Of a stretch of DNA of 64,000 nucleotides, positions 29,150 to 50,942 are shown piece after piece. This DNA comes from Spirosoma aureum (GTDB lineage: Bacteria > Bacteroidota > Bacteroidia > Cytophagales > Spirosomataceae), in assembly GCF_011604685.1 (NCBI RefSeq), contig NZ_CP050063.1, positions 7,977,001 through 8,041,000 of the forward strand. The letters run 5' to 3'. The first letter of the stretch is position 1. Each line of letters opens with the position of its first letter. The notes under the pieces were generated by a model that made no database searches, was not told the DNA's origin, and saw only the letters and a list, made by a program, of their open reading frames with translations. A program made the position numbers and the translations under genes.

Positions 29150-29372
29150 AGAAATAGGTCAAATCCAAGTTAGGTTGTATAAAAGTAGGGTATTGTGGAA
29201 TTATTGCCAAATAAATGAGGAGTATTTTCTACACTTTTAATGTAAAATAATTTTACTGATTTTTATATGATACTGGTTTCCAATGAAGTAAGTACATCAA
29301 AAGTTACATACGAAACAAAAATTTAATACCATCAACCCTGAAACAAGTAACCTATCAACACGGAAAAGCGCT

Positions 29373-29431
29373 AAAAAAAGTGTTTCACCTTGTTAATGCC
29401 TAGCAGTATGGGCTTAACATGGTGAAACACT
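29373..29431 (-). terminator. Orphan minus-strand terminator
   Basis: An 11-bp stem (AGTGTTTCACC at 29379-29389 with 29421-29431) continues after one mismatch through a further 6+3 bp. On the minus strand the hairpin is followed by seven T bases (A tract 29373-29379). No minus-strand gene is recognised upstream of it between 29432 and 29820, so an unannotated small transcript is possible. Confidence 0.65.
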
Positions 29432-29727
29432 CAAAAAGTAGTTAGCAATAGGCTATCCGTTTCGCCGAAAGCCACCCCATTCCGTATTGTCACGCCAAAC
29501 CGGTTGTTTTTTTAGGTAGAGGAATAAAATAGTGGTCTAGGATCGGGTGCCCGCGCTTTTCAATTAATAAAACATCACCTAAATGCACGCGACGGTTAGG
29601 CACATAACTTTAGCCTTCACTTCAGTTTATAACTAATTTCATAAAAGCTCAGAAGCTCGAATTTACCAGATTATATCGTAATCTGGCCAAAAATGTTCGG
29701 ATTTGGGACAAGGCATCGTAAAGAAGG

Positions 29728-29756
29728 TTGCATCTCATTTTTTTAGTCTATCTTTC
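29728..29756 (+). promoter_or_regulatory. Possible Bacteroidota-type promoter of the caspase island
   Basis: TTG at 29728-29730 is followed after 18 bases by TATCTTTC at 29749-29756, one base off the TAnnTTTG -7 element. It sits about 65 bases before the ATG at 29821. Judged by eye only. Confidence 0.25.
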
Positions 29757-29820
29757 CTTTATCAATTAGATTATCAGTTAGTTAATATGTTATTCCTATC
29801 CTCTAACCTTAGACTCACTC

Positions 29821-32800
29821 ATGAATCCGCTATCCACTCCTCCTGAGGAATTAGACCCTCATTTTAAAACCGTTACCTATGCCTTATTAGTGGGTATTAA
29901 TACTTATACCACTTCTCCACTTCAGGGACCTGTCAATGATGTCAAAAAGGTAGCTGATTTTCTAAAAACGCTTACCGATATAGATACGCACATCAAGATA
30001 TTAACAGATAGTGAAGCGACAAAAACCGCACTAATTACCGCTTTCCGCGAACACCTGGGCCAGGCAAAATCAGGAGATACAGTTCTATTTTATTTTTCGG
30101 GTCATGGCACCAGCGAACGAGTCGATACGACCATCTGGTCTGATGAATCGAGTGGTGTTTTAGAGTGTATTGCCTGTTATAATGGCGACACAACCAACAG
30201 CTGGGACTTTTTGCTGGCCGACAAGGAACTACGATACCTGCTTCAAGAAGTCGCACAGGAAGGGAAAGTGCATACCGTTTCCATATTTGATTGTTGTCAT
30301 TCTGGCGATAACACAAGAAGCCTTCTCGACCTGGACGCACAGGACACGCGCCAACGCAGTATTCAGGATATTTTTCCGCTCCGTCCCTGGACTGCTTTTC
30401 TTTTCAGCAGTCAAATTTCTGAAGAGCAGGCTCGTTCTCAGCCACTGCCGGAATGGCTTCCAGAGCCAATACATATACAAATGTCGGCCTGTGCAGCCGA
30501 CGAAAAGGCATTAGAGGTAGAAAATGAAGGCGTGTTCACTAAAAATCTGTTGTCTGTATTACAGGCTAATAGTGGGGCCGTTTCGTACGAATCTCTGGTT
30601 GATCACGCACGTCAGTACATGCGTTTTGGGTATGACCAGCGTCCCCAACTATTCGCATCAGGCAGCATTCCCGAAAAACTGAAGCGAAGCCCCTTTCTGA
30701 ACCGTTCTGTTAATACTGAATTGCCCGCCGTTCAGGCGCAGTTTAGCCAAAGTAAAAATGGAACTCAAGGTGGGTGGTATCTGAACGTCGGGGCTTTACA
30801 TGGGCTACAACCTGGTCAGGAAGTTAAGCTCCTAACGTCTATAGGCCAACCGTTACTAACTACACCTGTCTCGGAAATAGGGTTAGATTATGCACGCTTG
30901 TCTATTGATTCAGCGGTATCAGTTCAGCCCGATCCAGCGATAGTCTATCGCGTCGATGTGCCTGGGTTGATGAGCAAACCCCTGCGAATTTTCTTTTCCA
31001 GTCGAAATGGTTCTCCGGCCGAGCAGGCAAAAATGATCGCCAATCTAATGGCTGAAGCGGGCAATTGCTATGTGCCCGAAGCAGACGAATCGGCGGCTGA
31101 TTATGCACTTTATGCCCGTAATGGCTGGTATTTTTTAACCCTTCCCAACACCGAAGACCAGCCCGACAATGAATTTCGGCCATTGGTCAGTCCGGTCATG
31201 TTTACTGATAAAAATGTCAATCAAAAACTTGGAAATTATATTCGTCAGTTCTCCCGCTGGACGTATCTGAAAACCTTAAAAAATCCGGTAGCCACTGGGC
31301 CAGGGATTAAAATCGAGATTGTGCCGGAAGGTAGTTCCTCTGTTGCCAAAAATGGTTCTACTGTGCCTATCACGCTAATCGAACGAAATGAAACGCATAC
31401 AAATGAGGTTGTTATTCGAGTTACTAACACCACAAACCAGTTATTGTATTGCACTGTGGTTTACCTGACACACGGCATTGGGTCGTGGCTCCAATTTCTG
31501 GACACAAACACGGAACTGGTACCAAATCAAATGGTTATTGTCGGTCAGAATGCCTATGAAGGGGCTGATAATTCAACACGAATTTCGATTCCGATATCCT
31601 CGGCAGGAGAAAACGTTGTACACGACTATAATTGGCCCGCAGTAGACGAGCGTTTACTGTTCATTTTTACCACCAAATCAGCGAATGCGTCGGGCGTGTT
31701 GAGTGAGTCTACCCTGAATTTTCTGCAATTTGATGAACTTCCTCCACCGCCTACTCTTGCCGACCGAATGGATGGAGGAACGAAGGCCATAGCTGCATCA
31801 CGCCCATCGACGGCAGTTCCGCTACCTACCTGGTGGACACAATCGATCAACCTGCGCTGGGAAAACCCCGCGTACAACAAAATTAGCAAGTATGATCTCC
31901 ATGCGATGATCAGTCCGCAACCAGATATAGTTGCCGATGATGCGCTGGCCGATTGTGCGCTGGGTTTATATTTTACGACCAGCACCAATCAATCACCTAC
32001 ACTACAGGTTAAACCTCAACTTCAGCAATACTGGATCAGCCAACAGGATGTCCAGAAAGGCATGGGTGAAGATATCTCATTGGCGTTGGCCAGCCGAGTA
32101 TCACAATCCATTCGTAATCGGCAGTTTCAAGAAAACCGAACGGTTTACCCAAATCGGGCAAGGGTCGTCGCTAGTGGCGATTCGTGGTTTCAGTATCCAT
32201 TTCTGATTCGCGATATTGTCGACTGTTTAAGCAATGGGTATCTGGTGTATAGTCTTGCTTCGACGGATAACACACTCCAAACCATTGATCCAAACGACGT
32301 TTTGCTGGCTATTGACGAATCTGACGCTCAGTTTTTATTGTTTAGCGGTGGGTTGAATGACCTCATGGATCAGTTTCCTGATCGGTTCATTCTTGACATA
32401 ACCGATTTGCCGCAGACAAATCCGCGCCAGTGGCTGACCGACGAGTTTTTTCAAACTCTTGATGTCATGCAGGTTCAATATGAGTCGCTGTTCGAGGCCA
32501 TCCGGCGAGAAAAATCCAACGTGTATATCATTGCACATGGCTATGATTATATCCGGTCGGTCAACGCGGTATCGGAAGAGCGGAACTGGCTGGCCCCAGA
32601 ACTTACCAGAAAGGGAATCTCCAGCCCACAGGCACAGCAGGCCTTGTTGAACCTGGTAATCGATGAGTTTAATGAACGGCTCAAAACCGCAGCCGACAAA
32701 TTCGATGACATGGTAACACATTTGGATCTGCGTCACATTGTGGCCAAACCAACCTACTGGCACGACGAGACGCATCCGAATGATGCTGGCTTCCTGGATT

Positions 32801-32865
32801 TGGCCTATCAATTTGTAAAACAGATCCGCACGATTCAAAAGCCAGCCATCACAACAGTTCACTGA
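29821..32865 (+). CDS. Caspase-like protease fused to SGNH hydrolase
   Basis: A 1014-residue multidomain protein without signal peptide. Residues about 15-270 are a peptidase C14 (metacaspase/caspase) domain: His95 in FYFSGHG and Cys159 in FDCCHSG form the dyad. Residues about 490-640 look like a DUF4384-type beta domain, with VRVTNTTNQLLYCTVVYL. Residues about 780-1000 have SGNH hydrolase blocks: Ser788 in SGDSW, Asn846 in GGLND, and the Asp982/His985 pair in DETHPND. I know of no standard architecture joining these enzymes. It is the first gene of a six-gene run and is probably a protease-activated or protease-linked effector (inference). Confidence 0.85.
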   Translation: MNPLSTPPEELDPHFKTVTYALLVGINTYTTSPLQGPVNDVKKVADFLKTLTDIDTHIKILTDSEATKTALITAFREHLGQAKSGDTVLFYFSGHGTSERVDTTIWSDESSGVLECIACYNGDTTNSWDFLLADKELRYLLQEVAQEGKVHTVSIFDCCHSGDNTRSLLDLDAQDTRQRSIQDIFPLRPWTAFLFSSQISEEQARSQPLPEWLPEPIHIQMSACAADEKALEVENEGVFTKNLLSVLQANSGAVSYESLVDHARQYMRFGYDQRPQLFASGSIPEKLKRSPFLNRSVNTELPAVQAQFSQSKNGTQGGWYLNVGALHGLQPGQEVKLLTSIGQPLLTTPVSEIGLDYARLSIDSAVSVQPDPAIVYRVDVPGLMSKPLRIFFSSRNGSPAEQAKMIANLMAEAGNCYVPEADESAADYALYARNGWYFLTLPNTEDQPDNEFRPLVSPVMFTDKNVNQKLGNYIRQFSRWTYLKTLKNPVATGPGIKIEIVPEGSSSVAKNGSTVPITLIERNETHTNEVVIRVTNTTNQLLYCTVVYLTHGIGSWLQFLDTNTELVPNQMVIVGQNAYEGADNSTRISIPISSAGENVVHDYNWPAVDERLLFIFTTKSANASGVLSESTLNFLQFDELPPPPTLADRMDGGTKAIAASRPSTAVPLPTWWTQSINLRWENPAYNKISKYDLHAMISPQPDIVADDALADCALGLYFTTSTNQSPTLQVKPQLQQYWISQQDVQKGMGEDISLALASRVSQSIRNRQFQENRTVYPNRARVVASGDSWFQYPFLIRDIVDCLSNGYLVYSLASTDNTLQTIDPNDVLLAIDESDAQFLLFSGGLNDLMDQFPDRFILDITDLPQTNPRQWLTDEFFQTLDVMQVQYESLFEAIRREKSNVYIIAHGYDYIRSVNAVSEERNWLAPELTRKGISSPQAQQALLNLVIDEFNERLKTAADKFDDMVTHLDLRHIVAKPTYWHDETHPNDAGFLDLAYQFVKQIRTIQKPAITTVH

Positions 32866-32974
32866 CCGGATTTTGATGATTACAGCTATCACCCTAAATG
32901 ACCAGGGGCGATGGTAGTGATCGTATTTATAGTTTGTAAAAAGCCCAAGACAAGCTCCCTAAACCTATCTATCA

Positions 32975-35305
32975 ATGTACAGACGTTATATATCACTCAG
33001 TTTGGCTCTGCTATTCTGTTGTTATAGCTTAGTTGGACAGATAATACGTACACCTCTAAAATCGGCTTCCCAAAAAAAGTCTATCGTATCCACAACCGAA
33101 ACAAGAAGCTATTGGGTAAAACAAGGAGACGCATTCATGCGGCAACGTCAATACACCGCGGCCTATTCGGCGTTTCTGCTGGCAAAAAGTCTGGGAGCAT
33201 CCGGCATGTCGGATAAAATGCAGAATGCCCAGCAAAAAAATAGTAAACAACTTCAGGACAATGCCGTCCAACTTCGGGCTAATTCTGCCCGTCTTGCCTT
33301 TCAGGCAGGGTTGCAGCAGGCTAAAAACATAGCGGATACCAATCTCACTCAAAGTCTACGCCTGCTCGAATTTCTGCGGAATACCTACGACAGCACAAGC
33401 CGCAACGAAGCTGCCGTGCTCCGGATCATCAGTGAGGTGGTTGCTAATTCTGAGCAGGGACTTTATCAGACAAACGGAACAAGGCGCCTGTCATCCAATG
33501 AAATTGCGTCAGAAAAAGATACTGTCAGGTCAGATGCGCTTCCGCAAAAACTCCAGCAGCAAGTCGATTCTGTTTTTCGGCAACTATCTGTGCCTCCTTA
33601 TCAGCCAATAAAAGGATTTCTGGCGCCCCTCCCAATAGGAGAAAAGGAGTCAAGGGGCTACCATTTTATTGCCGCCCATCACCTCCTCTTCACTTATTAT
33701 ACTTATTTCTATTATGACGCTAATTCTAAGGAAAAGCGGGATTCATCCAATTCGGTTATTCTCTGGCGAACCGATGGTGATCATCTAATTCCTATTCACA
33801 CGTTTATTAATCAATTTGACAATTTACCACGCCTTTCGTCCGATGGCCAGATACTGGCCCTTCAGTTAAAGCTAAATAAGGGCGGGGCTACTATTAAAAT
33901 AGACAGTATCTATCAGGTAACTGATACCGAACTCATTGGCCTTAAAGGGTTTATTGGCCAGGGCTCTATCTGGTTCTCTCCCGATAACCACTATATAGTG
34001 ATCCATGGTGGCGACAGGAAAGGACTGAACATTATCTGGCGAAAGGTAAACAGTGATCTGTATTACATGCTGTCCATCAGTGGGTCTTCCCTATCGACCC
34101 GGTTTGCAGGAGAACAGATTACAATGGATATACTGAATGAAGCCAACACTTATACGGCAACCTCCCTGACCATCGATTTGAAAACGCAGCAGTTGATTCT
34201 GCCCCCCGCATGCCATTATCGAACCAAAGCAACTAACGTTTTCTTCGTGGGCGATAATTACCTGATGGTTCAGCATTTAGCAGACAAGCCTCATATTGTT
34301 CTGTATTCGATACAGGATTGGTGGCTGGCACAATGTGAGACGATCTTCTGGGGTGATTTCAGGACTGGATCAATGACCTCGAATGGTCGGTATGTAGTCC
34401 TACGTCCCCGCGATTCTGCCAAGCCCGCCGAATTATGGGAATCTGATCGATTTGGGCACTTTAACCGGGTTAGCGGATTATCGGAATCGTTTGAGAACGC
34501 CATTTTCTCGCCTGACAGCCGAATGGCTCTTTTTTCTGATAAAAAACGCTCTGGTCAGTTACGGATGCTGGACAGCACCGGCTTTCGCGTTATTCACACA
34601 TTTACTGAACGTTTTAGAGCTATAGATTGCCAGTTTTCACCGAATTCAAAATGGCTGTTCGTCGATTTTTTCGGGAGTGCTATTGATTCGCTCTGGCAGG
34701 TAAGATCGAAAGGGCTGGGGCCTGCCAAAGAAACAATATCTTTTGAGTCTACGATTACGGCAAGATTTCACCCCAACAGCCAACAGCTAGTTACGCTGAC
34801 TGGGGAAAACAATATGATAAAATACTATAAACTTGGGGCTGATGGTCTGGTAAGCAACTTATATGGCCCTACGCAGCTTCCCGCAGCCAATACCTTGTAT
34901 ATCGTTGACGATCAGATCTTTTACAGTAGTACCGACACATATTCGACAAATCGGGCCCAGCAGGATCAGGACGGTACACCCATAATGAATAAACTAAGCA
35001 AGGGAGCGCTGGAGTCGCCTGTTTATGACGACGGAGAGACCCTGTTTTTTGTGGTATATTCCGAACTATCACGCCAGCGAACATTGGTGGGTTACGACAA
35101 AATACTTCAAGAAACAGTCCTAAGCCGCGCAGTGAATGGCGCATTCGATCTGACCATGACCGATGATAAAAACATCCGTCTCGCCGATCCAACAGGGCTT
35201 TATACGATCATACCGCCCCGAAAAATACTGAGGCTACTTCAAAGTGGCAAAGTAGCTCCATTAACGGATGAATTACGCAGAAAATTTGAGCCCATTCAAC
35301 CTTAA
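32975..35305 (+). CDS. Exported TPR-like/beta-propeller protein
   Basis: A 776-residue protein with a signal peptide (MYRRYISLSLALLFCCYSLVG). Residues about 45-200 are helical and repeat-like (DAFMRQRQYTAAYSAFLLAKS). The rest is a WD40/DPP-like propeller with repeated blade motifs: FSPDNHYIVIHG, FSPDSRMALFSD, FSPNSKWLFVDF and FHPNSQQLVTL. No catalytic residues are evident. Blade sequences like these often form the C-terminal half of STAND-WD40 proteins. Here they are on a separate exported chain, 11 bases upstream of the caspase-STAND gene, so the two products probably interact. Confidence 0.78.
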   Translation: MYRRYISLSLALLFCCYSLVGQIIRTPLKSASQKKSIVSTTETRSYWVKQGDAFMRQRQYTAAYSAFLLAKSLGASGMSDKMQNAQQKNSKQLQDNAVQLRANSARLAFQAGLQQAKNIADTNLTQSLRLLEFLRNTYDSTSRNEAAVLRIISEVVANSEQGLYQTNGTRRLSSNEIASEKDTVRSDALPQKLQQQVDSVFRQLSVPPYQPIKGFLAPLPIGEKESRGYHFIAAHHLLFTYYTYFYYDANSKEKRDSSNSVILWRTDGDHLIPIHTFINQFDNLPRLSSDGQILALQLKLNKGGATIKIDSIYQVTDTELIGLKGFIGQGSIWFSPDNHYIVIHGGDRKGLNIIWRKVNSDLYYMLSISGSSLSTRFAGEQITMDILNEANTYTATSLTIDLKTQQLILPPACHYRTKATNVFFVGDNYLMVQHLADKPHIVLYSIQDWWLAQCETIFWGDFRTGSMTSNGRYVVLRPRDSAKPAELWESDRFGHFNRVSGLSESFENAIFSPDSRMALFSDKKRSGQLRMLDSTGFRVIHTFTERFRAIDCQFSPNSKWLFVDFFGSAIDSLWQVRSKGLGPAKETISFESTITARFHPNSQQLVTLTGENNMIKYYKLGADGLVSNLYGPTQLPAANTLYIVDDQIFYSSTDTYSTNRAQQDQDGTPIMNKLSKGALESPVYDDGETLFFVVYSELSRQRTLVGYDKILQETVLSRAVNGAFDLTMTDDKNIRLADPTGLYTIIPPRKILRLLQSGKVAPLTDELRRKFEPIQP

Positions 35306-35316
35306 ATCTATCGTAT

Positions 35317-38300
35317 ATGTTCCCTAACCGCCACGCTTATCTGCTAGGAGTTCAGGACTATCAGGATAGCAAAATTCCGAAACTATCAACACCCATTAAT
35401 GATATCAACCGGCTAGCGTTGATATTAAAGGAAAGGTACAATTTTACGGTTACATGTATTCCTAACCCGACGGCAGATCAGTTTCGTAACGTATTTAACG
35501 AAGACCTTAAGTCTCTGCCAACCGATGCCCAGGTAGTCATATACTACGCAGGTCATGGAATGACAGCGCAGGAATACAACCTAAACCAGTCTGATACTGA
35601 ACAGGGCTACCTACTTCCAGTTGATGTAGTATCCAACGACAATGGAGAGGCTCCAGATCTGGCCATTTCCATGGAAGAAATAGCCCACGATCTGGCCGAA
35701 CTGCCTTTTTCTCAGCTGTTGCTGATTCTCGACTGCTGCTATGCAGGTATGTTTCAGCAGGCTGCCATGAGATTTACTCCTCAAATTACCCTTAAACGAT
35801 CTGATAGTAAAATCCTAGAATTGGAAACCCCCACGGCTAGTGGGTCAAGTACTGAGCGCGCAATAGCTGGATCGCGGGTTAGTCGACAGGTAAACAAGGA
35901 AGAGTTCAATGCATTTATCGGCTACAAAGCCAGACAGATCTTCACCTCTACGGCCTATGACCAGAAAGCAAAAGACAGTTATATGAATGTTACGCTCGAA
36001 AACGGGAACTCACCGTTTGCCGATAAGCTCTGCGATGCGTTAAGCTCTGACCAGGAAACAGTAGACAGCAATGATGACATTATCACTCTTTTTGAACTAC
36101 AAAACTACATGCAGCCCCGCCTGGACCCCTTCCAGCAAGTCTGCTGCATTTTCCCTTTTTCGGGTCATGATGGCGGAGAATTTGTTTTCCTGAACAAGTA
36201 CTCAAAACAACTTACAACCGATAAACGTCGAAATCCATTTATGGGCTTGCTCGATTATGAATCGAGTGATGCACCGTATTATTTCGGTCGCCGGACCGTG
36301 ATCGACGAACTAACACCGCTGGTGCTCAACAATCCATTTGTCGTTGTAGTAGGCGCATCGGGGAGTGGCAAATCATCGTTGGTGAAAGCGGGAATTTTAC
36401 CCAAGATCGAATCAGAACCTCATTTGAAGGTGATTCGACCGGGGAAAAATCCAATGGAAGGCCTGGCAAACTTTTCGGCTCATCCTGAGCAGTTTCTGGT
36501 CATTGATCAGATGGAGGAACTCGCTACCCAGACTAACATATATGAACAAGACAAGTTACTTAAGAATTTTTTCCAGGAGGCCTTTAAACTAATCGATACC
36601 CAACAGGTTCGGGGAATCATTGGCACGTTACGGATCGAATTCATAAAACCCATCAAAACCGCCGTTGAAGCCATAAGACCAGGCTTTTGGCAGCAGTACC
36701 TGGTTCCCACCTTCAGCATTGAAGACCTTAATGATATCATACTCTGCCCGGCGGAACTCGTAAAAGTTTTTTTTCAGCCTGAACGCGAAGTAGTTGGCAA
36801 AATCATCAATGATTTCCGGCTATACCCCAATGCATTGCCACTCCTCTCACTGGCTCTGGACGACCTCTTTTCCAGTACATTCCGGATCGATCGCACGATT
36901 CGATTGGCGGATTATAAAGGCATTGAAGCTGTCCTGCAAAAGAAAGAACATGTTCTAAAAGAGATTAAGACTACCGATCTCGAATTAGATCAGCACGACA
37001 TCGATGAATTTCGAAAAAACCTGATGATTCGCTTCGTTTCGTATCAGAATGGAACCTATGTCCGACGAAGAATTCCGACTATCAATGGTGAACTATCGTT
37101 TGGTCAGAAGTATGACCAGCTAGCGAAACGCCTGATCAACGCGCTGGCAGAAAACCGGCTCGTCGAGAGAATAGAACCCAAACTCGACAGTAGTTCAGAT
37201 GCAGTTAAGCAGGAAGGCCATATTGAACTGGCGCATGAAGCGCTGATTTTTTCGTGGGATGAATTCCGGACTTCCCTGCTTGAACTGGGTTCTGATTCGC
37301 TCATCCGGCACAATAAACTAGCGGATGATACGACGTTGTATAATCCTGCCGATCCCGAACCATCTCTTTGGACCAATAGCCAAATGCTCGCCCTGCTCAG
37401 CAAAGCAGATCGAAGTATCGATACCATGGATTTTATATTGGGTAAATATATACTTCGTCCTATACTGCGTCGGTTTGGCAAAACAGTGCGTCCGCCGTGG
37501 ACCTATTTTCTGATCTTTGAGCCATTCGAGAGCGTATTTGGTACTATAAACTGGCTACTGACAGCCGAGCAAAATTTCCTTAGAGCAAGTTACAAAGCTG
37601 CAGTCGGCAGACGATTTGGAGCGGTTAAAACGACGCTGATCGCCTTTTCGTTTCTTTACGTTGCTCAACTGATGCTGAGTATATATATAGGAAGACGTTA
37701 TGAGATGAACAATCAGGAGAAAGAAATGATACGTAAAACGAAAGACCTTAAGGAAAAATTAGAGGAAAATACAAAAGATGATATTAATGATAAAATGAAG
37801 TCTGCAGAAGCGCTGACTTACATCAACGCCTACGCTGAAGCGCTCAGAAAATACAGCGAACTGGATCATTTTTTAGCGGACAATACGCTCCTCCAGAAAG
37901 ATAGTATACGCGCCAAACGGGCCGAAATCAGTCAGAAAGTCAAACAGACAAGAAGCCGCCAGACAGCGTTTAATGCCATTACGCAACTTATTAAAAAAGC
38001 TGATTCATTGAGTCAGTGGCCCCTTTTACACCCAACGTCGGAAATGGCAGAATCCTGCCTTCATAATACTTATTTTAAGATGGCCGCTGATCGCTATGTG
38101 GAGGCTAGCCAATACCTCAATGCCAATAAAATGCTATTCAGGGACAAGTTCTTTTCGCAAACCTGGAATGAATTAAACCGGCAAACCCAGAACGGTCTGA
38201 ATATATCCACTATTGAACTCAAAAACTTGCAGCGTATTTGTCTGGATGTGAGTGCCGGATTTAACCTGGTTAACGCCAACACAGGAAATTATACCCAGCA

Positions 38301-38379
38301 ACATAGTAAATACAAGAAGATTAGTCAGGCTATCGACGACTACCTGAAGCAGAAGAAACCCAAGCCGAAGAGAAACTAA
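35317..38379 (+). CDS. Caspase-STAND NTPase with membrane segment
   Basis: A 1020-residue protein. An N-terminal caspase domain (about 1-300) carries His80 in YYAGHG and Cys141 in LDCCYAG. Then YFGRRTVIDEL leads into a STAND NTPase with P-loop GASGSGKSS (about 346-354) and a Walker B-like FLVIDQMEEL. A single membrane helix at about 770-793 is followed by a Lys/Glu-rich coiled-coil or TPR-like tail of about 225 residues, predicted on the far side of the membrane. This is the pattern of a ligand-switched death or conflict protease. The tail and the exported propeller protein are the likely sensor side. Confidence 0.87.
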   Translation: MFPNRHAYLLGVQDYQDSKIPKLSTPINDINRLALILKERYNFTVTCIPNPTADQFRNVFNEDLKSLPTDAQVVIYYAGHGMTAQEYNLNQSDTEQGYLLPVDVVSNDNGEAPDLAISMEEIAHDLAELPFSQLLLILDCCYAGMFQQAAMRFTPQITLKRSDSKILELETPTASGSSTERAIAGSRVSRQVNKEEFNAFIGYKARQIFTSTAYDQKAKDSYMNVTLENGNSPFADKLCDALSSDQETVDSNDDIITLFELQNYMQPRLDPFQQVCCIFPFSGHDGGEFVFLNKYSKQLTTDKRRNPFMGLLDYESSDAPYYFGRRTVIDELTPLVLNNPFVVVVGASGSGKSSLVKAGILPKIESEPHLKVIRPGKNPMEGLANFSAHPEQFLVIDQMEELATQTNIYEQDKLLKNFFQEAFKLIDTQQVRGIIGTLRIEFIKPIKTAVEAIRPGFWQQYLVPTFSIEDLNDIILCPAELVKVFFQPEREVVGKIINDFRLYPNALPLLSLALDDLFSSTFRIDRTIRLADYKGIEAVLQKKEHVLKEIKTTDLELDQHDIDEFRKNLMIRFVSYQNGTYVRRRIPTINGELSFGQKYDQLAKRLINALAENRLVERIEPKLDSSSDAVKQEGHIELAHEALIFSWDEFRTSLLELGSDSLIRHNKLADDTTLYNPADPEPSLWTNSQMLALLSKADRSIDTMDFILGKYILRPILRRFGKTVRPPWTYFLIFEPFESVFGTINWLLTAEQNFLRASYKAAVGRRFGAVKTTLIAFSFLYVAQLMLSIYIGRRYEMNNQEKEMIRKTKDLKEKLEENTKDDINDKMKSAEALTYINAYAEALRKYSELDHFLADNTLLQKDSIRAKRAEISQKVKQTRSRQTAFNAITQLIKKADSLSQWPLLHPTSEMAESCLHNTYFKMAADRYVEASQYLNANKMLFRDKFFSQTWNELNRQTQNGLNISTIELKNLQRICLDVSAGFNLVNANTGNYTQQHSKYKKISQAIDDYLKQKKPKPKRN

Positions 38380-38480
38380 ATAACCCTGGGCTCCACTTAT
38401 ACAATTCACTCAAAATCAATTGTGTAAGAATTAGAATGTAGGTACATTGAAAACTACCTTCCTAACCTTGACTTAACAAT

Positions 38481-40472
38481 ATGAACGCTTCCACACGCAC
38501 GCTATGGACCGATGATTTTCTGAACCAGAAACGGCTGATTGGCGATCCGCTGGCCGATACCACCATTGGAACGATTATGAATCTTGGTCTAAAAGGCGAA
38601 TTAGATCAACTTTTTCGATTACTGACCCAAAACGATTCTTTCGTCACGCTTTCAGCACATAAATTTCAAGGTTTTAGCTCGGAGCTTGTGCGGGCTGTCG
38701 AGCCTTTTTTCGAGGAATCGGGTCAACTTCCGGCCGAGCTGGGCGATCCCTTCGAATTGAACACAGCCGCCGATGAATTCGAAGATCGCATGATACCCAT
38801 TCTGTTGTCGCTTCATTGCAAATCGCTCCCGCTCAGCTATGCCTGTGCCAATGGAGCTAAAGTGCTGCATCAGGCTGGCCGCATGATCGTGCATGATAAG
38901 TCACTCAAACCCTTTACACGACGGCTATTCGAAACGGCTCAGTTTGTGAATAATCTGATGGCCAAAAATGGATTTGAGCCTACGGGTAATGCCATCATCA
39001 GTGTTCAGAAAGTGCGGCTTATGCACGCGGCAATTCGTTTTTACACCAAACTTCGGCCCTGGGATGTCGGCCTGTTTGGCGAACCCATCAACCAGGAAGA
39101 CCTGGCACTCGGTCACCAGATTTTTAGTTCGGTAATTATCAGCGGGTTACGGCAACTTGGCATTGAGGTATCTGATAATCAGGAACGGTGTTATCTCTAT
39201 CTATGGCAGACCGTAGCACACATCCTGGGAATTCAACCTGATCTGGTAACGCAGACACAAGCTGATGGTGAATATTTATTACAACGAATTATGGACAGGC
39301 AAGCCGCCCCTTCCGATGAAGGAGCTGCGCTGACCTACGCCTGCATCGAATTTGTGGACGGCAAATTGCAATGGTCGTCTATCAAGCATCTGACACCACG
39401 GCTGATGCGCTTCCTGATCGGTGACCAATACGCCCGGATGTTGCAAATTCCGGGCACACCAGCTGTTGCTGAAAATGCTGATCCAGAGGATTTCAGCCTG
39501 ATTAGTACTTTATTTCCAAGATGGGATGCCGTCAATGAAAGCAATCTATTGCTTAAGTCGGCTACGCGGTTTATACTCAATAGCGGTCTCGACGTTGGGC
39601 TTAAAGCATACAACGATACCCCTCAGGATCAGTTCTTCGTACCGTCATCGCTCTCAGATTATCTCAACCAAAAGAATGCCATTCCTCTATCGGCCGGGGC
39701 CGAGGCTCAAACGTTGACCATGGCCATTGAACGGTTTGATGCTTTAACAAAGCTCCTCAAGCATCTGAATCACCCCCTTGGTTTCTTTACCATTGCCGGG
39801 AGCCACTTAACAAAACAGGTAGCCGACAACATTCAGAAAAAAGCATTCGTCAATCATTCATCGATCGGCGCACTCTACCTGAAAAGCGTTAATCGTTTTT
39901 TTGACGAGGTCAACCACGTTGGTAAAGATGAAGCCGTTGCCGGGCCCTGGCGCGTAGTATTTCAATCTGACCAACGACTACTCACTATTGATCAGCATTT
40001 GTTGCTTCCTGGCTATGCCTATCTAGCCTATGACCTGATTCGGGTATTGACCGATAACCTTCCAGCTCAACAGCAAACAGGCTTCAAATCAGATTACCAG
40101 CGCATCATTACACTATTCACCAACATCTACATGAAGCTCATCGAGCAGCTTGGCCGTATACATCCTGACTACGGTTGGCTGGCTGGCCTGACATTTGAAC
40201 CTGCCCGCGAATCTGCATTTGCCACGTTCCGGACAGAAGTCACTGGCGCCTGGTCATTTACCGCTCAACTCTCTGATTTGGAAGCTGATTCTACGTCAAC
40301 AAGACTTGCACATGATTTGGCGACGGCGACGGTAGCCGATCAAATTGCCAATCCTACTGACGACAGTCGCCAAAAATTAAACGAACTCGCTGAGCGTCAA
40401 TTCCCCGTCGATCAACCTGACCAGACAGTAGCCGCTAAACTGGATGCTTTGTTAGCCGACGAATTTCATTAA
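38481..40472 (+). CDS. DUF2236 (MpaB/rubber oxygenase-like) and DUF5995-like fusion
   Basis: A 663-residue protein that appears to join two families. Residues about 90-330 resemble DUF2236, the haem oxygenase-like family of latex-clearing protein and MpaB, with His182 in KVRLMHAAIRFYT a candidate haem ligand, followed by QEDLALGHQIF and CYLYLWQTVAHILG. Residues about 410-570 resemble DUF5995: HPLGFFTIAGSHLTKQV, AGPWRVVFQ and DQHLLLPGYAYLAYDL. Substrate and cofactor are unknown. No signal peptide. The gene is 31 bases upstream of a methyltransferase. Confidence 0.68.
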   Translation: MNASTRTLWTDDFLNQKRLIGDPLADTTIGTIMNLGLKGELDQLFRLLTQNDSFVTLSAHKFQGFSSELVRAVEPFFEESGQLPAELGDPFELNTAADEFEDRMIPILLSLHCKSLPLSYACANGAKVLHQAGRMIVHDKSLKPFTRRLFETAQFVNNLMAKNGFEPTGNAIISVQKVRLMHAAIRFYTKLRPWDVGLFGEPINQEDLALGHQIFSSVIISGLRQLGIEVSDNQERCYLYLWQTVAHILGIQPDLVTQTQADGEYLLQRIMDRQAAPSDEGAALTYACIEFVDGKLQWSSIKHLTPRLMRFLIGDQYARMLQIPGTPAVAENADPEDFSLISTLFPRWDAVNESNLLLKSATRFILNSGLDVGLKAYNDTPQDQFFVPSSLSDYLNQKNAIPLSAGAEAQTLTMAIERFDALTKLLKHLNHPLGFFTIAGSHLTKQVADNIQKKAFVNHSSIGALYLKSVNRFFDEVNHVGKDEAVAGPWRVVFQSDQRLLTIDQHLLLPGYAYLAYDLIRVLTDNLPAQQQTGFKSDYQRIITLFTNIYMKLIEQLGRIHPDYGWLAGLTFEPARESAFATFRTEVTGAWSFTAQLSDLEADSTSTRLAHDLATATVADQIANPTDDSRQKLNELAERQFPVDQPDQTVAAKLDALLADEFH

Positions 40473-40503
40473 TTCCCTTTCTCTTTTAACCATTCTACAC
40501 TGT

Positions 40504-41391
40504 ATGACACCAGCTTTAGAAGTACCTCATGAACAAAAGCGTATCAATGAACAGGAAATAATCAGCTATTATGATGACTGTCAGGTCGATTATGAGATTG
40601 TCTGGCACCTAAAGTCGAAGATGTGTATGCACTACGGTTACTGGGATAAAACAACCCGGCGGCTGCGCGACGCACTGACTAATATGAATCGAAAAGTGGC
40701 TGAATTTGCCAGAATTGCACCGGGTGAAACAATCCTCGATGCAGGCTGTGGCGTAGGTGGTATGTCTATTTTTCTGGCACGTCAATACCGATGTCAGACA
40801 GTAGGAATCACCCTTAGCGAAAAACAGGTTCGAACCGCTACCGAAAATGCCAGTAGACATGATGTTGCCCTGAACTGCCGGTTTGAGCGACAGAACTACC
40901 TGACCACCACGTTTCCTGATAACTCCTTCGATGCGGTTGTAGGCCTTGAAAGTATCTGCTACGCCTACGACAAAGCTGATTTTCTCCGCGAAGCGTTCCG
41001 GGTACTAAAACCGGGTGGTCGGGTGATGATAGCCGATTTTTTCAGCAATGGGGTCCTACCAGACACAGATGAAGCCCGGCTAATGCAAAAATGGACTGCA
41101 ACCTGGGCCATCAAAAGCTATGCAGACAACAACGAATTCTGGGAAACCCTTTCGGCGGTAGGTTTTGTGAATTGTCAGCAACAGAACGTAACCGATCATG
41201 TAGTGAAAAGTATTCGCCGATTGTATTATTCGTTCTTTCCGGGAGTTATCGTTACCAAGTTGCTCCAATGGGTCGGTATTCGCAATCAGACACAGACCGA
41301 TAATACCTGGTCTACTCGTTATCAGTACAAAGCCTACCAGCAGAATTTATGGCAATATCGATTCTACTGTGCCGAAAAACCCAACGTGTGA
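40504..41391 (+). CDS. Class I SAM-dependent methyltransferase
   Basis: A 295-residue enzyme with the AdoMet motif ILDAGCGVGGMS (residues 78-88), VGITLSEKQV for the second strand and FRVLKPGGRVMIADFF for the post-IV region. The layout, with an N-terminal YYDDCQVDYEIVW helix, resembles the sterol/tocopherol/cyclopropane-fatty-acid group, so a small lipid or terpenoid substrate is likely. Adjacent and close to the oxygenase-like gene, so the pair may modify one lipid-type molecule (inference). Confidence 0.85.
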   Translation: MTPALEVPHEQKRINEQEIISYYDDCQVDYEIVWHLKSKMCMHYGYWDKTTRRLRDALTNMNRKVAEFARIAPGETILDAGCGVGGMSIFLARQYRCQTVGITLSEKQVRTATENASRHDVALNCRFERQNYLTTTFPDNSFDAVVGLESICYAYDKADFLREAFRVLKPGGRVMIADFFSNGVLPDTDEARLMQKWTATWAIKSYADNNEFWETLSAVGFVNCQQQNVTDHVVKSIRRLYYSFFPGVIVTKLLQWVGIRNQTQTDNTWSTRYQYKAYQQNLWQYRFYCAEKPNV

Positions 41392-41500
41392 AACGTTTAT
41401 AAGCCTCGGTTTGTGGTTGCCAGCTGGCACATTACCAAGTAAGTCCAGTGTAGCAACCAAAGCTAATTAACCGCACGAGTACAACATTCAATTCCCCATC

Positions 41501-44500
41501 ATGGATACGCTATCTACACTACTTTATGAGAGTGACGAAACCCTGATCTTCCGCGAGAAAGGTCCTAATGGGACGCAAATCCGGAAGGTATTACGGGCCA
41601 CGACACCTGATCCTGACCAGATTCTTCAGTTCACGAATGAGTTTGAATACACAAAAGATCTGCGCATTTCCGGTGTTCGCAGGTCGCTTGCCCTTCACAA
41701 GGAAAATCAGCAATATTCGCTCCTGTTGGAATACATTGACGGGGCTACTCTGGGCGAAGCATTTGTTGGTAAGAATCAGCCGCTCGACACAGTGCTTTCA
41801 CTGTTTATTACGGTGTCAGGTATTTTGGGGCAGTTACATAATCGAAATATCATCCATAAAGACATTCACGACAACAATATCCTGTGGATAGAAAAAACGA
41901 AAAGCCCCGTGGTGATTGATTTCGGAATCGCTAACCGGATCGACCTGCTCTCCACAAATCTGGGCAATCCAGAACGCATCAAGGGTCGACTCACGCACAT
42001 GTCGCCGGAGCAGACAGGCCGTGTCAATCGAAAGGTCGATAGTCGATCGGATCTCTATTCGCTGGGTGTTACCATGTATCAGGTATTGACGGGTCTATTA
42101 CCTTTTCAGGCAACCGACCCGCTTGAACTGGTACACGCCCATATTGCCTGGCCGATTCCGAATGCAACATCCGCGAATCCGGCAATTCCGGCCATTGTCT
42201 CAGAAATCGTGACTCAGCTGATGGCCAAAAACGCAGAAGAGCGCTATCAATCAGCGTTTGGGCTGAAAGTTGACCTCGAACGTTGCTTGGCTCAATATCG
42301 CGAAACTGGTCAGATCAACCCATTCCCGTTGAAACAACGCGATTTTTCGGGAAAATTTCAGATTCCCCAGAAACTTTACGGACGGGCTGGTGAAGTAGAA
42401 ACGCTCTTACGGGCTTTCGATCGGGTCAGTCGGGGTAGTGTCGAACTGTTTTTGGTTGCCGGTTATTCGGGGGTAGGCAAAACGGCCCTCATAGGCGAAA
42501 TTTATAAGCCTGTCACCGAGAAACGGGGGTATTTCGCCGGCGGCAAGTTCGATCAGTATCAACGCAACATTCCCTATTTTGCGTTTAAACAAGCGTTGGG
42601 AGAATTCTGTATGCTGTTACTTACCGAACGCAGGGAAACCCTCAGTCGGTGGCAGCAATTGATACAGGAAAGTGTCGGTGAAAATGGGCAGGTATTAACT
42701 GATATGATTCCCGAATTAACGACTCTTATTGGCCCACAACCCCATGTACCTAAACTAGATCCACAGGAAGCGACCAATCGCTTCAATCTTGTTTTTTCAA
42801 AATTCATGAAGGCTATTGCCCGACCTGAACACCCATTTATTCTCTTCTTGGATGACCTTCAATGGGCCGATGTAGCCTCGCTCAATCTCATTCGCCTATT
42901 GATAACTGATGTAAATCATTCGTGCTTTCTGGTAATTGGTGCCTACCGCGACAACGAAGTGAGCGCTGGGCATCCACTGTTGAAAATGCTCGATACAGCC
43001 CAGGACGAATCGGCAGTAATCAACGCTATAGTGTTAGACCCACTACGCGAAGAACACCTGTTTCAACTCATCAAAGAATCATTACTGACCGATGATAGCA
43101 CGGTGCAGGAACTAACCAAATTGGTTTATGCCAAAACGCAGGGCAATGCATTCTTCACGCTGGAATTTCTGAAATCGTTGAATCAAATGGGGCTGGTGAG
43201 CTTCGATGCGAACCAACTCAAATGGCAAATTGATTTTGCCGGCATTCGTCGCCGGGCCATTACCAACAATGTGATTGATCTGTTGGTAGAAAAAATGGGA
43301 ATGCTGCCCGAAACCACTCAGTCGTTTCTGAAAATGGCGGCCTGTATTGGTGGCTTGTTTGATATGCAGCTGTTGGCCTATCTGAGCGGGCAGGATATAC
43401 CAGAATCATTACAGAATCTATGGGCGGCTGTCGAAGAGGGACTCATTTCACCAGTCGGAGAAAATTATCAGTATGCTGACATTATTCAGCATACCGAGTC
43501 ATTCAGGATTCAGATCGAGTTTTCACACGACCGCATACAGCAGGCTGCTTATTCGCTCATGACCAGCGACGAGCAGGCCCAGCTTCATTTACAGATCGGG
43601 CGTTTTCTGCTCCAGCACCAACTCCACGACGAAGATCATTTATTTGATCTGGTCAACCACCTCAACGCGGGTGCTGAACTACTTACGGAACCCGCCGAAC
43701 GCGCCCGGCTCACCCGCCTGAATCTGACAGCCAGCCTGAAAGCCCGCCAGGCAAGTGCGCATCTATCAGCCTTCACTTATGTCAATCTGGCCCGGCGGCT
43801 GGCAGGTGATCAAAGCTGGACCGACGATTATGGTTTTGCTTTATTGCTCCACAAAACAGCGGCTGATCTGGAATACCTCAACGGCAATTTCTCGGCTGCA
43901 GAAACCCTAATGCATGTCTGCCTTGAGCATGTACAGACCTTATCTGAAAAAGCGGATGTATATTTTCTGCTGATGCAGATTCAGAGCAATACAACCCGTT
44001 ACTACGAGGCTATCGAATCGGCCCGACAGGGACTTAAATTGCTCGATTTCGACTTCCCCGAAAATGCGGCCAACGCAGATGCGCTCATTCCGGCCGTACT
44101 CACAAAAATTCTGACGTATTTCGGTCAGCACGGGGTCGAAGGTATCTACGGCAAAGAAGACATGACCGACAAACGATTGTTGGCCATTATCAACATTCTG
44201 GACAATCTCTCGCCACCAACCTATGTAACAGGGGAGTCAAGTTTGTGGACCATCCACGTACTGTTCAAAATTGACCTGACTATTGAGCACGGCCTGACTC
44301 CACAGGGTGGGTATGCCTTTTCTGAGCTTGGCCTGCTGTTTTTCATTTTGAATCAGTATGATTTCGCTTTTCCGGCGGCTCAGCTTAGCCGAAAAATAGC
44401 CCAAAAATTCATCAAGGAATCACCCCGGCATCTGAGCCGGGTAGGCCACTTATACACCAACTACAACCTGCCCTGGATGCGCCCCATTAGCGAAACCGTG

Positions 44501-46846
44501 GCCCTTAATGATGAATTTTATCAGCTCAGCCTGGAGGCAGGCGAGTTGATTTATGCAGGATACACCAGCTTTTTTCCGTATTTTAACAGCTATTATCAGG
44601 GTAAGGAGTCGCTGAATACGTTGATCAATCGCTTACCTGAGGGGCTGGAGTTTACCAAAAAAATCCATCACGATTTAGCCCACGATTCGCTTTGGGGGCT
44701 GAATCTCGTACTAGCCTGTCTGACCGGAAAAACAGCATCGGAGAATAGCTTCGACTTACCGGAGAAAAGTGAGCAGGAATTACTGACTTATTGCCAAACC
44801 GTCAACGACGCATTCGGCAGTACGGTCTATAATGTACTGAAAGGACAGGCTCTCTATTTACTTGGACGGCTTCACGAGGCTCAGGAATGTCTGGAAACAG
44901 CACATGCGCTGGCTGGCGCGATGAGTGGCTGTGTTGCCATAGACACTTCGTTTCGGCTAACATATTGTCTGACATTACTGGCTTTACTACCTCAGGCAGA
45001 TGAGCAGACAAAAGCTTTGTACTGGACAAAAATTGACCAGTTCAGTCTGCAATTTACGACCTGGGCACTACACAACCCCGCCACGTTTACCCATAAAAAA
45101 CTGCTGATTGACGCAGAAATTGCCCGTACCAGATTAGAAAATGCCGTAGCTGTTCGGAATTATGCCAAAGCCATAACTTCCGCCGAAGCCAATGGTTATG
45201 AACGCGAACTGGCACTGATTCACCGTCTGGCAGCTGATTTCTGGCTGGGAGCTGGTTACCCGTTTTATGCTAAACCCCATATCGAAACGGCCCGATACAC
45301 GTTTTACCGATTGGATTATACACGGGTAGCGGAGACAATCGACAAAAAATATGAATCCTTGTTTGCTGCTGTTGATCCCAATAGCGACGGCGCGACTGGG
45401 CCGTACTACCTGAAAGCACGAAATTATCTGCGTACAACCGTTTCGGAAAACAGTAGTGTACTTGATATTCGGAGTGTGCTTAAAGCAGCCAGCGCATTGT
45501 CGGAAGAGTTGGTTCTGGATCGTTTGCTGGACAAAATGCTCCGGATCGTGCTGGAAAACGCGGGGGTGCAGCGAGCCGTATTGTTAGTTCCCAACATGGG
45601 TGCCTGGCGCGTTGAAGCCGAACAGAATCTATTAACTACGAATAAATCTGACTTTGAACCAGCCGATCTGGATAACATAAAATCGCTGCCTGCAACGGTG
45701 ATCAACTATGCGATTCGTACCCAGGCTGAAGTTTTTTCCAGTAATACAAAGCTGCTCAAAGCTTTCGAACGAGATCCGTATCTGAAAGCACAGGCACCGG
45801 CGTCCTATTTATGTATTCCACTGATTTTCAAGGGCGATATGGTTGGTATCCTTTATCTTGAACACCAGACTGGTTATAACGCCTTTACGTCTACAGGTCT
45901 TAATCTGCTGCGACTACTGAGCAGTCAGATGGCTGCTTCGCTTGCCAATGCCATCCTCTATCGCGACCAGGTAGCACTAAGCCGGGCCTACCAACGGTTC
46001 GTGCCGCATTCATTTATCAACGCGCTAGGTCGGAAAAACATTTTACAGGTTGAACTTGGCGACAATATCGATCAGGAAATGACGGTGATGTTCTGCGACA
46101 TCCGCGCTTATTCGAGTTTGTCGGAAGGCATGACCCCAGAAGATAATTTTCGTTTTATCAATACCTACCTCAAACGTGTCGGACCTGTAATCCGGGCCAA
46201 TCAGGGCTTCATCAATCACTACCTTGGCGATGGCTTTATTGCCGTATTCAAGAACAATCCTGAAGATGCACTACGGGCTGCTCTTCAGTTATCAGAAACG
46301 ATTGAGCAGTATAACGAAAAGCGACTGACTGATGGCCGGATACCAATTAGCGTGGGAATGGGTATTCATACCGGTCGAGTGATGATGGGCATTATCGGCG
46401 ACGAAGAACGCCATGATGCCAACGTTATTTCCGATGCCGTCAATATTTCATCACGGCTGGAAGGACTTACCAAAACATTTGGCAGTACGATTCTGCTGAG
46501 CGAAAAAACCATGACTGGTATTATCAATCCGGGCTTGTTCATGTTCCGGTTTCTGGGTCATATTCGGGTTAAGGGGAAAGAAGATGCGTTGGATGTATAT
46601 GAGATGATCAGCACAAATGCACCGGATTTACTCGAAAAGAAAATACAGACGCTCGATTTGTTTAAAGATGGATTGAATAATTATTACAAAAAGCGGTTCG
46701 GCGAGGCAGCCGTTTCGCTACGAAAAGTATTGGACATAAATCCGGCCGATAAAACGGCGTATCGGTATCTGCTGAACGCAGCGCGGTATTTAGTGGAGAC
46801 CCCATCGGAGGGATGGGATGGCGTAGAAACAATGACCGAAAAATAA
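41501..46846 (+). CDS. Kinase-ATPase-GAF-adenylate/guanylate cyclase signalling protein
   Basis: A 1781-residue protein. Domains in order: Ser/Thr kinase-like (about 1-270), with catalytic loop HKDIHDNN (Asp121, Asn126) and VIDFGIA (Asp140); an AAA/MalT-type ATPase (about 290-650), with Walker A GYSGVGKT at 321-328 and Walker B LFLDDLQWAD (Asp451); a long TPR-like helical region (about 700-1300); a GAF domain (about 1330-1490); and a class III nucleotide cyclase (about 1520-1720), with metal aspartates Asp1533 (FCDIRAYS) and Asp1577 (LGDGF). The known cousins end in a histidine kinase or cyclase. Here it would turn stress or ligand binding into cAMP/cGMP. Last gene of the island. Confidence 0.88.
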   Translation: MDTLSTLLYESDETLIFREKGPNGTQIRKVLRATTPDPDQILQFTNEFEYTKDLRISGVRRSLALHKENQQYSLLLEYIDGATLGEAFVGKNQPLDTVLSLFITVSGILGQLHNRNIIHKDIHDNNILWIEKTKSPVVIDFGIANRIDLLSTNLGNPERIKGRLTHMSPEQTGRVNRKVDSRSDLYSLGVTMYQVLTGLLPFQATDPLELVHAHIAWPIPNATSANPAIPAIVSEIVTQLMAKNAEERYQSAFGLKVDLERCLAQYRETGQINPFPLKQRDFSGKFQIPQKLYGRAGEVETLLRAFDRVSRGSVELFLVAGYSGVGKTALIGEIYKPVTEKRGYFAGGKFDQYQRNIPYFAFKQALGEFCMLLLTERRETLSRWQQLIQESVGENGQVLTDMIPELTTLIGPQPHVPKLDPQEATNRFNLVFSKFMKAIARPEHPFILFLDDLQWADVASLNLIRLLITDVNHSCFLVIGAYRDNEVSAGHPLLKMLDTAQDESAVINAIVLDPLREEHLFQLIKESLLTDDSTVQELTKLVYAKTQGNAFFTLEFLKSLNQMGLVSFDANQLKWQIDFAGIRRRAITNNVIDLLVEKMGMLPETTQSFLKMAACIGGLFDMQLLAYLSGQDIPESLQNLWAAVEEGLISPVGENYQYADIIQHTESFRIQIEFSHDRIQQAAYSLMTSDEQAQLHLQIGRFLLQHQLHDEDHLFDLVNHLNAGAELLTEPAERARLTRLNLTASLKARQASAHLSAFTYVNLARRLAGDQSWTDDYGFALLLHKTAADLEYLNGNFSAAETLMHVCLEHVQTLSEKADVYFLLMQIQSNTTRYYEAIESARQGLKLLDFDFPENAANADALIPAVLTKILTYFGQHGVEGIYGKEDMTDKRLLAIINILDNLSPPTYVTGESSLWTIHVLFKIDLTIEHGLTPQGGYAFSELGLLFFILNQYDFAFPAAQLSRKIAQKFIKESPRHLSRVGHLYTNYNLPWMRPISETVALNDEFYQLSLEAGELIYAGYTSFFPYFNSYYQGKESLNTLINRLPEGLEFTKKIHHDLAHDSLWGLNLVLACLTGKTASENSFDLPEKSEQELLTYCQTVNDAFGSTVYNVLKGQALYLLGRLHEAQECLETAHALAGAMSGCVAIDTSFRLTYCLTLLALLPQADEQTKALYWTKIDQFSLQFTTWALHNPATFTHKKLLIDAEIARTRLENAVAVRNYAKAITSAEANGYERELALIHRLAADFWLGAGYPFYAKPHIETARYTFYRLDYTRVAETIDKKYESLFAAVDPNSDGATGPYYLKARNYLRTTVSENSSVLDIRSVLKAASALSEELVLDRLLDKMLRIVLENAGVQRAVLLVPNMGAWRVEAEQNLLTTNKSDFEPADLDNIKSLPATVINYAIRTQAEVFSSNTKLLKAFERDPYLKAQAPASYLCIPLIFKGDMVGILYLEHQTGYNAFTSTGLNLLRLLSSQMAASLANAILYRDQVALSRAYQRFVPHSFINALGRKNILQVELGDNIDQEMTVMFCDIRAYSSLSEGMTPEDNFRFINTYLKRVGPVIRANQGFINHYLGDGFIAVFKNNPEDALRAALQLSETIEQYNEKRLTDGRIPISVGMGIHTGRVMMGIIGDEERHDANVISDAVNISSRLEGLTKTFGSTILLSEKTMTGIINPGLFMFRFLGHIRVKGKEDALDVYEMISTNAPDLLEKKIQTLDLFKDGLNNYYKKRFGEAAVSLRKVLDINPADKTAYRYLLNAARYLVETPSEGWDGVETMTEK

Positions 46847-46899
46847 AGTGCTGATAGGCAATTGGTCAAATCAGTTCGTACAGATCCCACCCTTAGTAA

Positions 46900-50819: not shown

Positions 50820-50942
50820 TAGGATAAGGAGCAAAAGTGGTATGTAAAAGTTGCACAAAATTTGTTGCTCTCCGTATCGGATTTGCTAAAAGGCATGAAA
50901 ATGCGGTTAAAACCCTATTTTTGAGTACTGAATGCCCGTTTT

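Follow-up and report, generated by a model that had tools for sequence, protein, structure and literature searches.

The analysis of a 64,000 nt stretch of the Spirosoma aureum chromosome (the window) indicates that six plus-strand genes at positions 29,821 to 46,846 form an acquired, rearranged variant of a Spirosomaceae module. The core of this module is a unit made of a caspase, an SGNH esterase, an oxygenase and a DUF5995 domain, encoded as one chain in several relatives and divided between two genes here. The window variant lacks the 7TMR-DISM receptor and carries gene 6 downstream of gene 4, and its two core genes are separated by genes 2 and 3. The best single reading, to which a probability of about 0.4 can be given, is that the module acts on lipids as an effector under protease control, that its sensors can be exchanged, and that it perhaps serves in cell death or defence. 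That the domains are joined and co-inherited is observed; all steps beyond this we infer.

Comparison with the list of open reading frames showed the ends of the six genes given by the initial annotation to be exact, as were the gaps between them (109, 11, 101, 31 and 109 bases). Only three other open reading frames of at least 120 aa lie within the block, all antisense, and no terminator-like sites were found within the five intergenic gaps, which would be compatible with a single transcript. Gene 1 (29821–32865, plus strand, 1014 aa) codes for a caspase (C14), a central beta-rich region and an SGNH/GDSL hydrolase. Gene 2 (32975–35305, plus strand, 776 aa) specifies a probable propeller preceded by a start that, by eye, resembles a signal peptide, while gene 3 (35317–38379, plus strand, 1020 aa) contains a caspase, an nSTAND1 NTPase and, by eye, a possible transmembrane stretch. 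Gene 4 (38481–40472, plus strand, 663 aa) combines an MpaB/Lcp-type oxygenase domain (MPAB_Lcp_cat) with DUF5995, and gene 5 (40504–41391, plus strand, 295 aa) codes for a class I SAM-dependent methyltransferase. Finally, gene 6 (41501–46846, plus strand, 1781 aa) contains a Ser/Thr kinase, an AAA_16 ATPase, a TPR-like region, a GAF domain and a class III nucleotide cyclase. The domain types initially proposed for genes 1, 3, 4, 5 and 6 are backed by Pfam. The proposal of a propeller for gene 2 stands in part: likeness to propeller-type proteins and inspection by eye favour it, but no Pfam, PADLOC or NCBIfam matches were obtained. The initial annotation had included neither the esterase domain of gene 1, nor the fusion of genes 1 and 4 found elsewhere, nor the edges of the insertion. 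Each of the active-site motifs sought was found: those of the two caspases, of the esterase, of the ATPases (STAND and AAA), of the kinase and of the cyclase.

Gene 1 matched PF00656 with 86.6 bits (cutoff 21.4) and PF13472 with 34.4 bits (cutoff 32.9). Its caspase part shows FSGHG at residue 92 and DCCHSG at residue 157, so that the His-Cys dyad is present, and its SGNH/GDSL blocks (GDSWF at 786, SGGLND at 842 and DETHPND at 982) provide the complete set of Ser, Gly/Asn and Asp-His residues. The predicted structure (pLDDT 78.2) matches both metacaspases and GDSL esterases. Gene 4 matched PF09995 with 59.5 bits (cutoff 23) and DUF5995 with 66.2 bits (cutoff 27), and shows the Lcp fold and conserved haem-site residues: H182, R148 and T152 align with the proximal haem residue His198 and the active-site residues Arg164 and Thr168 of Lcp and are invariant in 48 aligned sequences. 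Since Glu151 replaces Lys167, the distal haem ligand of Lcp, the gene 4 product is best assigned to the wider MpaB/DUF2236 family and not to Lcp itself. The DUF5995 motif NAHIxxDL of canonical module members is changed to YAYLAYDL in gene 4 and in its 96% identical relative, and this domain may therefore be inactive in the window protein.

Genes 1 and 4 form a single open reading frame of 1667–1696 aa in six loci (L034, L035, L036, L037, L051 and L054) and are near neighbours in nine (L032, L033, L038, L056 and L057–L061). The window's own genome contains a second, canonical fused copy (approximately 137,784–142,730) whose Pfam matches are caspase, SGNH, MpaB and DUF5995. At this locus (G000:C1:137784-144958; L036, 6770–13962) the fused 1,673-aa protein is followed by a 7TMR-DISM histidine kinase and then by CHAT and TPR genes. 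In a tree of 33 gene 1-type sequences the window pair grouped with the 17 MpaB-linked rows (support 100/98); the branch leading to it is long (1.43). The corresponding tree for gene 4, also with 33 sequences, placed it within 23 MpaB-DUF5995 rows with a support of 88/88, which is below the tool's star; one MpaB-DUF5995 protein, P0109, grouped with the standalone MpaB rows. For two pairs of gene 1/gene 4 orthologues (P0205/P0087 and P0208/P0089; 59–73% identity) the longest contigs were of equal length (5,607,638 and 51,343 bases), which is suggestive of linkage but not proof of it. Protein searches returned the best 120 matches at most. Among the matches listed, three of the window-type gene 4 relatives P0086–P0093 had a gene 1 relative on an equally long contig, and five (P0088, P0090, P0091, P0092 and P0093) had no such partner, the contig in two of these cases being no longer than about 5 kb. 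Genes 1 and 4 belong together, in a core that is older than the full six-gene set.

Some arrangements of the core deserve mention. In five Larkinella genomes (L057–L061, approximately 12000–13800) a pair of opposite-strand genes lies between the two genes of the core; in L058, the one scanned, the pair codes for a LytTR regulator and a histidine kinase. Of the 11 named module loci all but one are from the Cytophagales; the exception, L056 in Flavobacterium sp. SUN052, suggests transfer or mislabelling. An MpaB-DUF5995 protein (P0106) on a 3.6-kb contig labelled Oxalobacteraceae is possibly a binning error.

The initial annotation had treated the block as one unit, and it does behave as a single insertion, with empty sites in relatives and a repeat at its edges. 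The flanking argB-like gene and outer-membrane-protein gene (46900–49878, minus strand, in the window) are convergent on one contig in seven of the 36 genomes of the genus; the remaining 29 are uninformative (another arrangement, genes on separate contigs, or one gene unmatched). In five of these seven (G022, G005, G029, G017 and G014) the two genes are 0.8–2.1 kb apart, while in the window and in G018 they are 18 kb apart. Four of the five empty sites were aligned, G014 being left out. Homology of G022 and G005 to the window ends at 29282 and restarts at 46901, which delimits an inserted segment at 29283–46900; the two arms are separated by 166 bases in G022 and by 151 in G005. For G029 and G017 it ends at 29254 and 29253, respectively, and restarts at 46905, the arms being separated by about 0.2 and 1.25 kb. 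A direct repeat, identical at 22 of 24 bases, is present at 29453–29476 and 46900–46923; the right copy is the 3′ end of the outer-membrane-protein gene, which the left copy duplicates. The same edge repeat in G018 is an 87-column gapped alignment. This repeat resembles a target duplication. As initially noted, there is no transposase inside: the six proteins gave no transposase or integrase domain match in Pfam. The ~17-kb block is thus a discrete insertion in a Spirosoma chromosome, probably an acquired one. Near the island, the product of a minus-strand gene (49983–50858) matches the PNGase F-II N-terminal domain, and a SusC/SusD-type pair is found at 57107–62131.

An orthologous 7TMR-DISM sensor gene lies next downstream in all 15 canonical loci opened. 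In this count L034/L052 and L035/L053, which represent the same two genomes, were counted once, L055 (on a short contig) was dropped, and eight further loci from the family screen (L096–L103), some perhaps repeats of named loci, were not included. The sensors are 47–97% identical, over 409–435 residues, to the copy in the window's own genome (that copy excluded). Their output domain is a histidine kinase in ten loci and a nucleotide cyclase in five, all of the latter in Larkinella. The sensor slot seems, therefore, to be exchangeable. The window island gave no matches to a 7TMR-DISM sensor gene; gene 6 is the second gene downstream of gene 4. It matched PF00069, PF13191, PF01590 and PF00211, with kinase, Walker and cyclase motifs present, and its cyclase domain is 25–29% identical to the Larkinella cyclase domains. 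In L118 and L119, which belong to two genera of another family of the order, an MpaB gene is followed by a DUF6989 gene and then by one for a gene-6-like protein, 31–32% identical to gene 6 over ~1,500 residues, that ends in a histidine kinase. A kinase- or cyclase-type transducer beside an MpaB gene is thus a recurrent arrangement.

In other caspase-SGNH proteins the added domain is an amidase at the N-terminus or a CHAT domain at the C-terminus, and some have both (P0053, P0058 and P0069 are such relatives). A related caspase (P0235) carries a vWA/CoxE domain, and another (P0222) is named for vWA. Among the caspase-SGNH loci L086–L094, CHAT relatives are near in six of nine and STAND relatives in three of nine; CHAT genes are located downstream of the canonical loci L033 and L036, and nSTAND1 genes near L033 and L034. 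The PADLOC 'caspase' model PDLC02987 matched gene 1 with 194.8 bits (7.6e-58), and the PD-T4-6 models matched the gene 6 kinase (best 4.1e-44; 149 bits for PDLC04047); these are matches to single proteins or domains, from an output without cutoffs and to which system rules were not applied. The NCBIfam defence models scored far below cutoff. The values were 48.1 and 57.7 bits for caspase_w_EACC1 (cutoff 140) and 73 bits for the MAD6 kinase of the MADS system (cutoff 460; other mad matches were to single domains). Gene 6 scored 122.1 bits against the TOMM kinase-cyclase fusion TIGR03903 (cutoff 705.75). From the domain types and the CHAT and nSTAND neighbours we infer a possible role in defence or cell death.

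If the module is a protease-controlled lipid effector, gene 2, gene 3 and/or gene 6 would sense a cue that leads to activation of the caspases. Proteolysis, either self-cleavage of the fused chain or cleavage of a partner in the split version, would free or turn on the esterase and the oxygenase. These would then attack ester bonds and C=C bonds in membrane lipids, the most plausible targets being isoprenoid lipids, for example polyprenyl carriers, menaquinone or carotenoids, and growth would stop or the cell would die, limiting an invader. Several observations count in favour of this proposal: the fusion of genes 1 and 4 in six loci and the tree placement of both; the equally long contigs of their orthologues in two sources; the 7TMR-DISM genes at the 15 canonical loci together with the gene-6-like kinases of L118 and L119; the Lcp fold with its conserved haem-site residues; and the amidase and CHAT relatives, CHAT/STAND neighbours and PADLOC matches. 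The insertion edges also count for it, as does the patchy presence of gene 4, found at E ≤ 1e-60 in 16 of 222 genomes of the family. At the same threshold, gene 4 was found in 12 of 390 genomes sampled from the order (for five of these, from outside the family, the match is confined to the MpaB half) and in two of 395 sampled from the phylum, both sets being subsamples. Counted against it are the finding of the six-gene set in only two genomes, which are closely related to each other, the altered DUF5995 motif and the distal Lys to Glu change, the restriction of the PADLOC matches to single proteins or domains with NCBIfam scores below cutoff, the five gene 4 relatives among P0086–P0093 without a listed gene 1 partner, and the placement of P0109 together with the long branch of the window gene 1 pair.

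The neighbourhoods of standalone MpaB genes bear on the same question. These comprised 35 distinct loci, 20 from a first screen and 15 added by a second (28-locus) screen; of those added, ten had 1.5 kb flanks and five were picked as strong MpaB matches in the order sample; the counts do not provide an unbiased rate, and kinases unrelated to the queries of both screens would escape notice. Among the first 20, a sensor or transducer gene adjoins MpaB in five (L039, L067, L068, L072 and L079), and all but L072 also have a Pyr4-type transmembrane terpene cyclase-cluster gene. The ten added loci with 1.5 kb flanks showed no such neighbours. The five strong-match loci (L115, L118, L119, L120 and L121) all have a terpene-cyclase-like or DUF6989 gene, accompanied by a transducer in every case except L115, which ends at a contig edge. 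A partner is thus present in ten of the 35 loci, and absent by the tests used in 25. For L039, L067 and L121 Pfam matches confirm the terpene cyclase family, while in L068, L079 and L115 the assignment derives from clustering or from a profile built here. In L039, L067, L068, L079 and L121, all from Cytophagales, MpaB, a Pyr4-type cyclase and a sensor kinase or SpoIIE-type transducer form operon-like sets (the L121 transducer consists of two overlapping open reading frames). Similar operon-like sets of MpaB, DUF6989 and kinase genes occur in L118, L119 and L120, the kinase in two of them being a gene-6-like Ser/Thr kinase-ATPase-GAF-histidine kinase. Further, six proteins (P0081–P0083, P0193, P0195 and P0201) fuse squalene-hopene-cyclase domains to MpaB. 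The terpene-cyclase neighbours and these fusions suggest isoprenoid substrates for MpaB-type enzymes.

The main rival explanation, a strong one even if we consider it somewhat improbable, is that an MpaB-type enzyme and a partner such as a terpene cyclase, a DUF6989 protein or a methyltransferase make an oxidised isoprenoid or lipid messenger that the adjacent kinase or cyclase perceives, for example in development or a stress response. The caspase-SGNH protein would then release or end the signal. This agrees with the five Pyr4-type and three DUF6989 sets containing a transducer, the kinase alone beside MpaB in L072, the terpene-cyclase-like gene at the contig end in L115 and the six squalene-hopene-cyclase fusions. 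It also agrees with the position of gene 5, between genes 4 and 6, which is the place of the terpene cyclase or DUF6989 gene elsewhere. Standalone MpaB genes beside terpene-cyclase-like genes point to a biosynthetic rather than a destructive role, and this counts against the effector proposal. However, 25 of the 35 standalone loci lack such a partner (ten of them with only 1.5 kb of flank), and the caspase, the esterase and the CHAT/STAND neighbours fit conflict systems better.

The initial annotation had proposed one coordinated six-gene system, to be checked by whether the genes stay together in unrelated Cytophagales. A conserved six-gene set is not supported: gene-by-gene searches of 119 relatives found the complete set only in the window's genome (G000) and in its close relative Spirosoma endbachense (G018; genome names were inferred, the others being G023, S. 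pollinicola; G042, Fibrella rubiginis; G050, Larkinella soli; and G052, Fibrisoma montanum). With the best few candidates per genome scored (up to six for gene 3 and four for gene 6), relatives of gene 1 (E ≤ 1e-20) were found in at least 22 of the 119 genomes, of gene 2 (E ≤ 1e-10) in at least two, G000 and G018 only, of gene 5 (E ≤ 1e-25) in at least six and of gene 6 (E ≤ 1e-50) in at least 22. Gene 3 relatives (E ≤ 1e-30) were present in at least three, all three beside the module, two of which share the island by descent. Gene 4 matches (E ≤ 1e-3) occurred in 86, mostly to the MpaB half alone. Except in G000 and G018, none of the listed places of genes 5 and 6 in the 119 genomes was near a listed place of gene 1.

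About 100 residues at the N-terminus of gene 2 share 40% identity with the propeller-type protein that adjoins the module in L035/L053, and 32% with the one that adjoins it in L056. Gene 3 matched PF20703 with 180 bits and PF00656 with 59.7 bits (cutoff 21.4), with Walker A and B and His/Cys motifs present, and a 32% identical relative adjoins the module in L035. A caspase-STAND gene and a propeller-type gene lie beside the module in Fibrella rubiginis, as do genes for a caspase, a papain-like peptidase and a propeller-type protein in Flavobacterium sp. SUN052; the window additions therefore have parallels elsewhere. Gene 5 matched PF13847 with 80.6 bits and PF02353 (CMAS) with 64 bits, shows the motif ILDAGCGVGG, and resembles CMAS- and GPP-methyltransferase-type enzymes. 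The idea of a coordinated system is thus favoured by the single insertion, the tie between genes 1 and 4, the presence of gene 3 and, in part, gene 2 relatives beside the module elsewhere, and the recurrent transducer, but not as a conserved six-gene set, since gene 5 shows no linkage and, outside G000 and G018, the gene 6 relatives listed lie away from gene 1.

These distributions also bear on an unlikely explanation, namely that genes 1 and 4 are the sole system and that genes 2, 3, 5 and 6 are passengers in a shared insertion site. Such a patchwork would account for the unlinked relatives of genes 5 and 6, for the separation of gene 1 from gene 4 by genes 2 and 3, which among the loci opened is seen in the window type only, and for the absence from the island of the usual 7TMR-DISM partner. 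It agrees less well with the gene 3 relatives, all beside the module (albeit two of the three by shared descent), with the partial gene 2 relatives beside it in two further lineages, with the recurrence of a kinase or cyclase transducer beside MpaB, and with the common orientation and close spacing of all six genes. A lipid-modification or secondary-metabolite cluster, in which the esterase, oxygenase and methyltransferase act sequentially on a lipid under the regulation of the signalling genes, would fit three possible tailoring enzymes in one block and the similarities of gene 5, but is very improbable given that the esterase shares a chain with a caspase and, in related proteins, with CHAT or amidase domains, that Pfam gave no carrier, synthase or exporter matches among the six genes, and that gene 5 is not conserved with the module.

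Caspase-linked conflict proteins are already known. Searches of open-licence literature, outside which most subscription papers lie, yielded no description of such a protein that also contains a lipid esterase and a rubber-oxygenase domain, none of a link between MpaB enzymes and receptor kinases or cyclases, and no paper dealing with DUF2236 and a caspase together. A broader scheme, which we regard as rather doubtful, would make a rubber-oxygenase-type haem enzyme a bacterial signalling or death effector: MpaB-type enzymes, together with a terpene cyclase or a comparable partner, would process membrane isoprenoids, a neighbouring receptor kinase, kinase-ATPase or cyclase would read the result, and in the Spirosomaceae a caspase-esterase would have captured the pathway, converting it into a proteolysis-controlled, isoprenoid-directed death or alarm signal. 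If the enzymes are active, the module would make it possible to test whether bacteria attack isoprenoid lipids, or signal with them, under protease control, and would hint at what DUF5995, DUF6989 and the bacterial Pyr4-like cyclases may do. That one orthologous sensor carries kinase output in some loci and cyclase output in others constitutes a natural experiment in signalling design.

Parts of the island resemble known systems. Gene 6 shares the kinase and ATPase architecture of the TOMM-type kinase-cyclase fusion (TIGR03903), and no TOMM-type genes were found among ten flanking proteins scanned. Its match to the PD-T4-6 kinases is limited to the ~240-residue kinase part, to which gene 6 adds an ATPase, a GAF domain and a cyclase. 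Gene 4 has the fold of the Lcp/MpaB oxygenases (PF09995) and their haem-site residues (R164, T168, R195, H198 and R202 of Lcp), but differs from Lcp in being fused to, or located beside, a caspase-esterase and in the change of the distal Lys167 to Glu; Lcp acts outside the cell, while the start of gene 4 shows, by eye, no signal peptide. The t-anethole oxygenase has a role in small-molecule metabolism. Gene 4 and this enzyme (PDB 8s1j) are 12% identical. Craspase/TPR-CHAT, as described in excerpts of PMC11089037, likewise involves a caspase-like protease in a bacterial response system; the island, unlike it, has no CRISPR component among the genes scanned. For the EACC1/EACC2 conflict systems, the authors of two papers (PMC7159879, eLife 2020; PMC8195603, eLife 2021) propose caspase-driven activation or release, and neither text contains SGNH, lipase or oxygenase as a word beginning. 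In those systems, as in the module, the caspase protein is constant and its effector-like C-terminus variable; the module is set apart from them by its esterase, rubber-oxygenase domain, DUF5995 and 7TMR-DISM partners.
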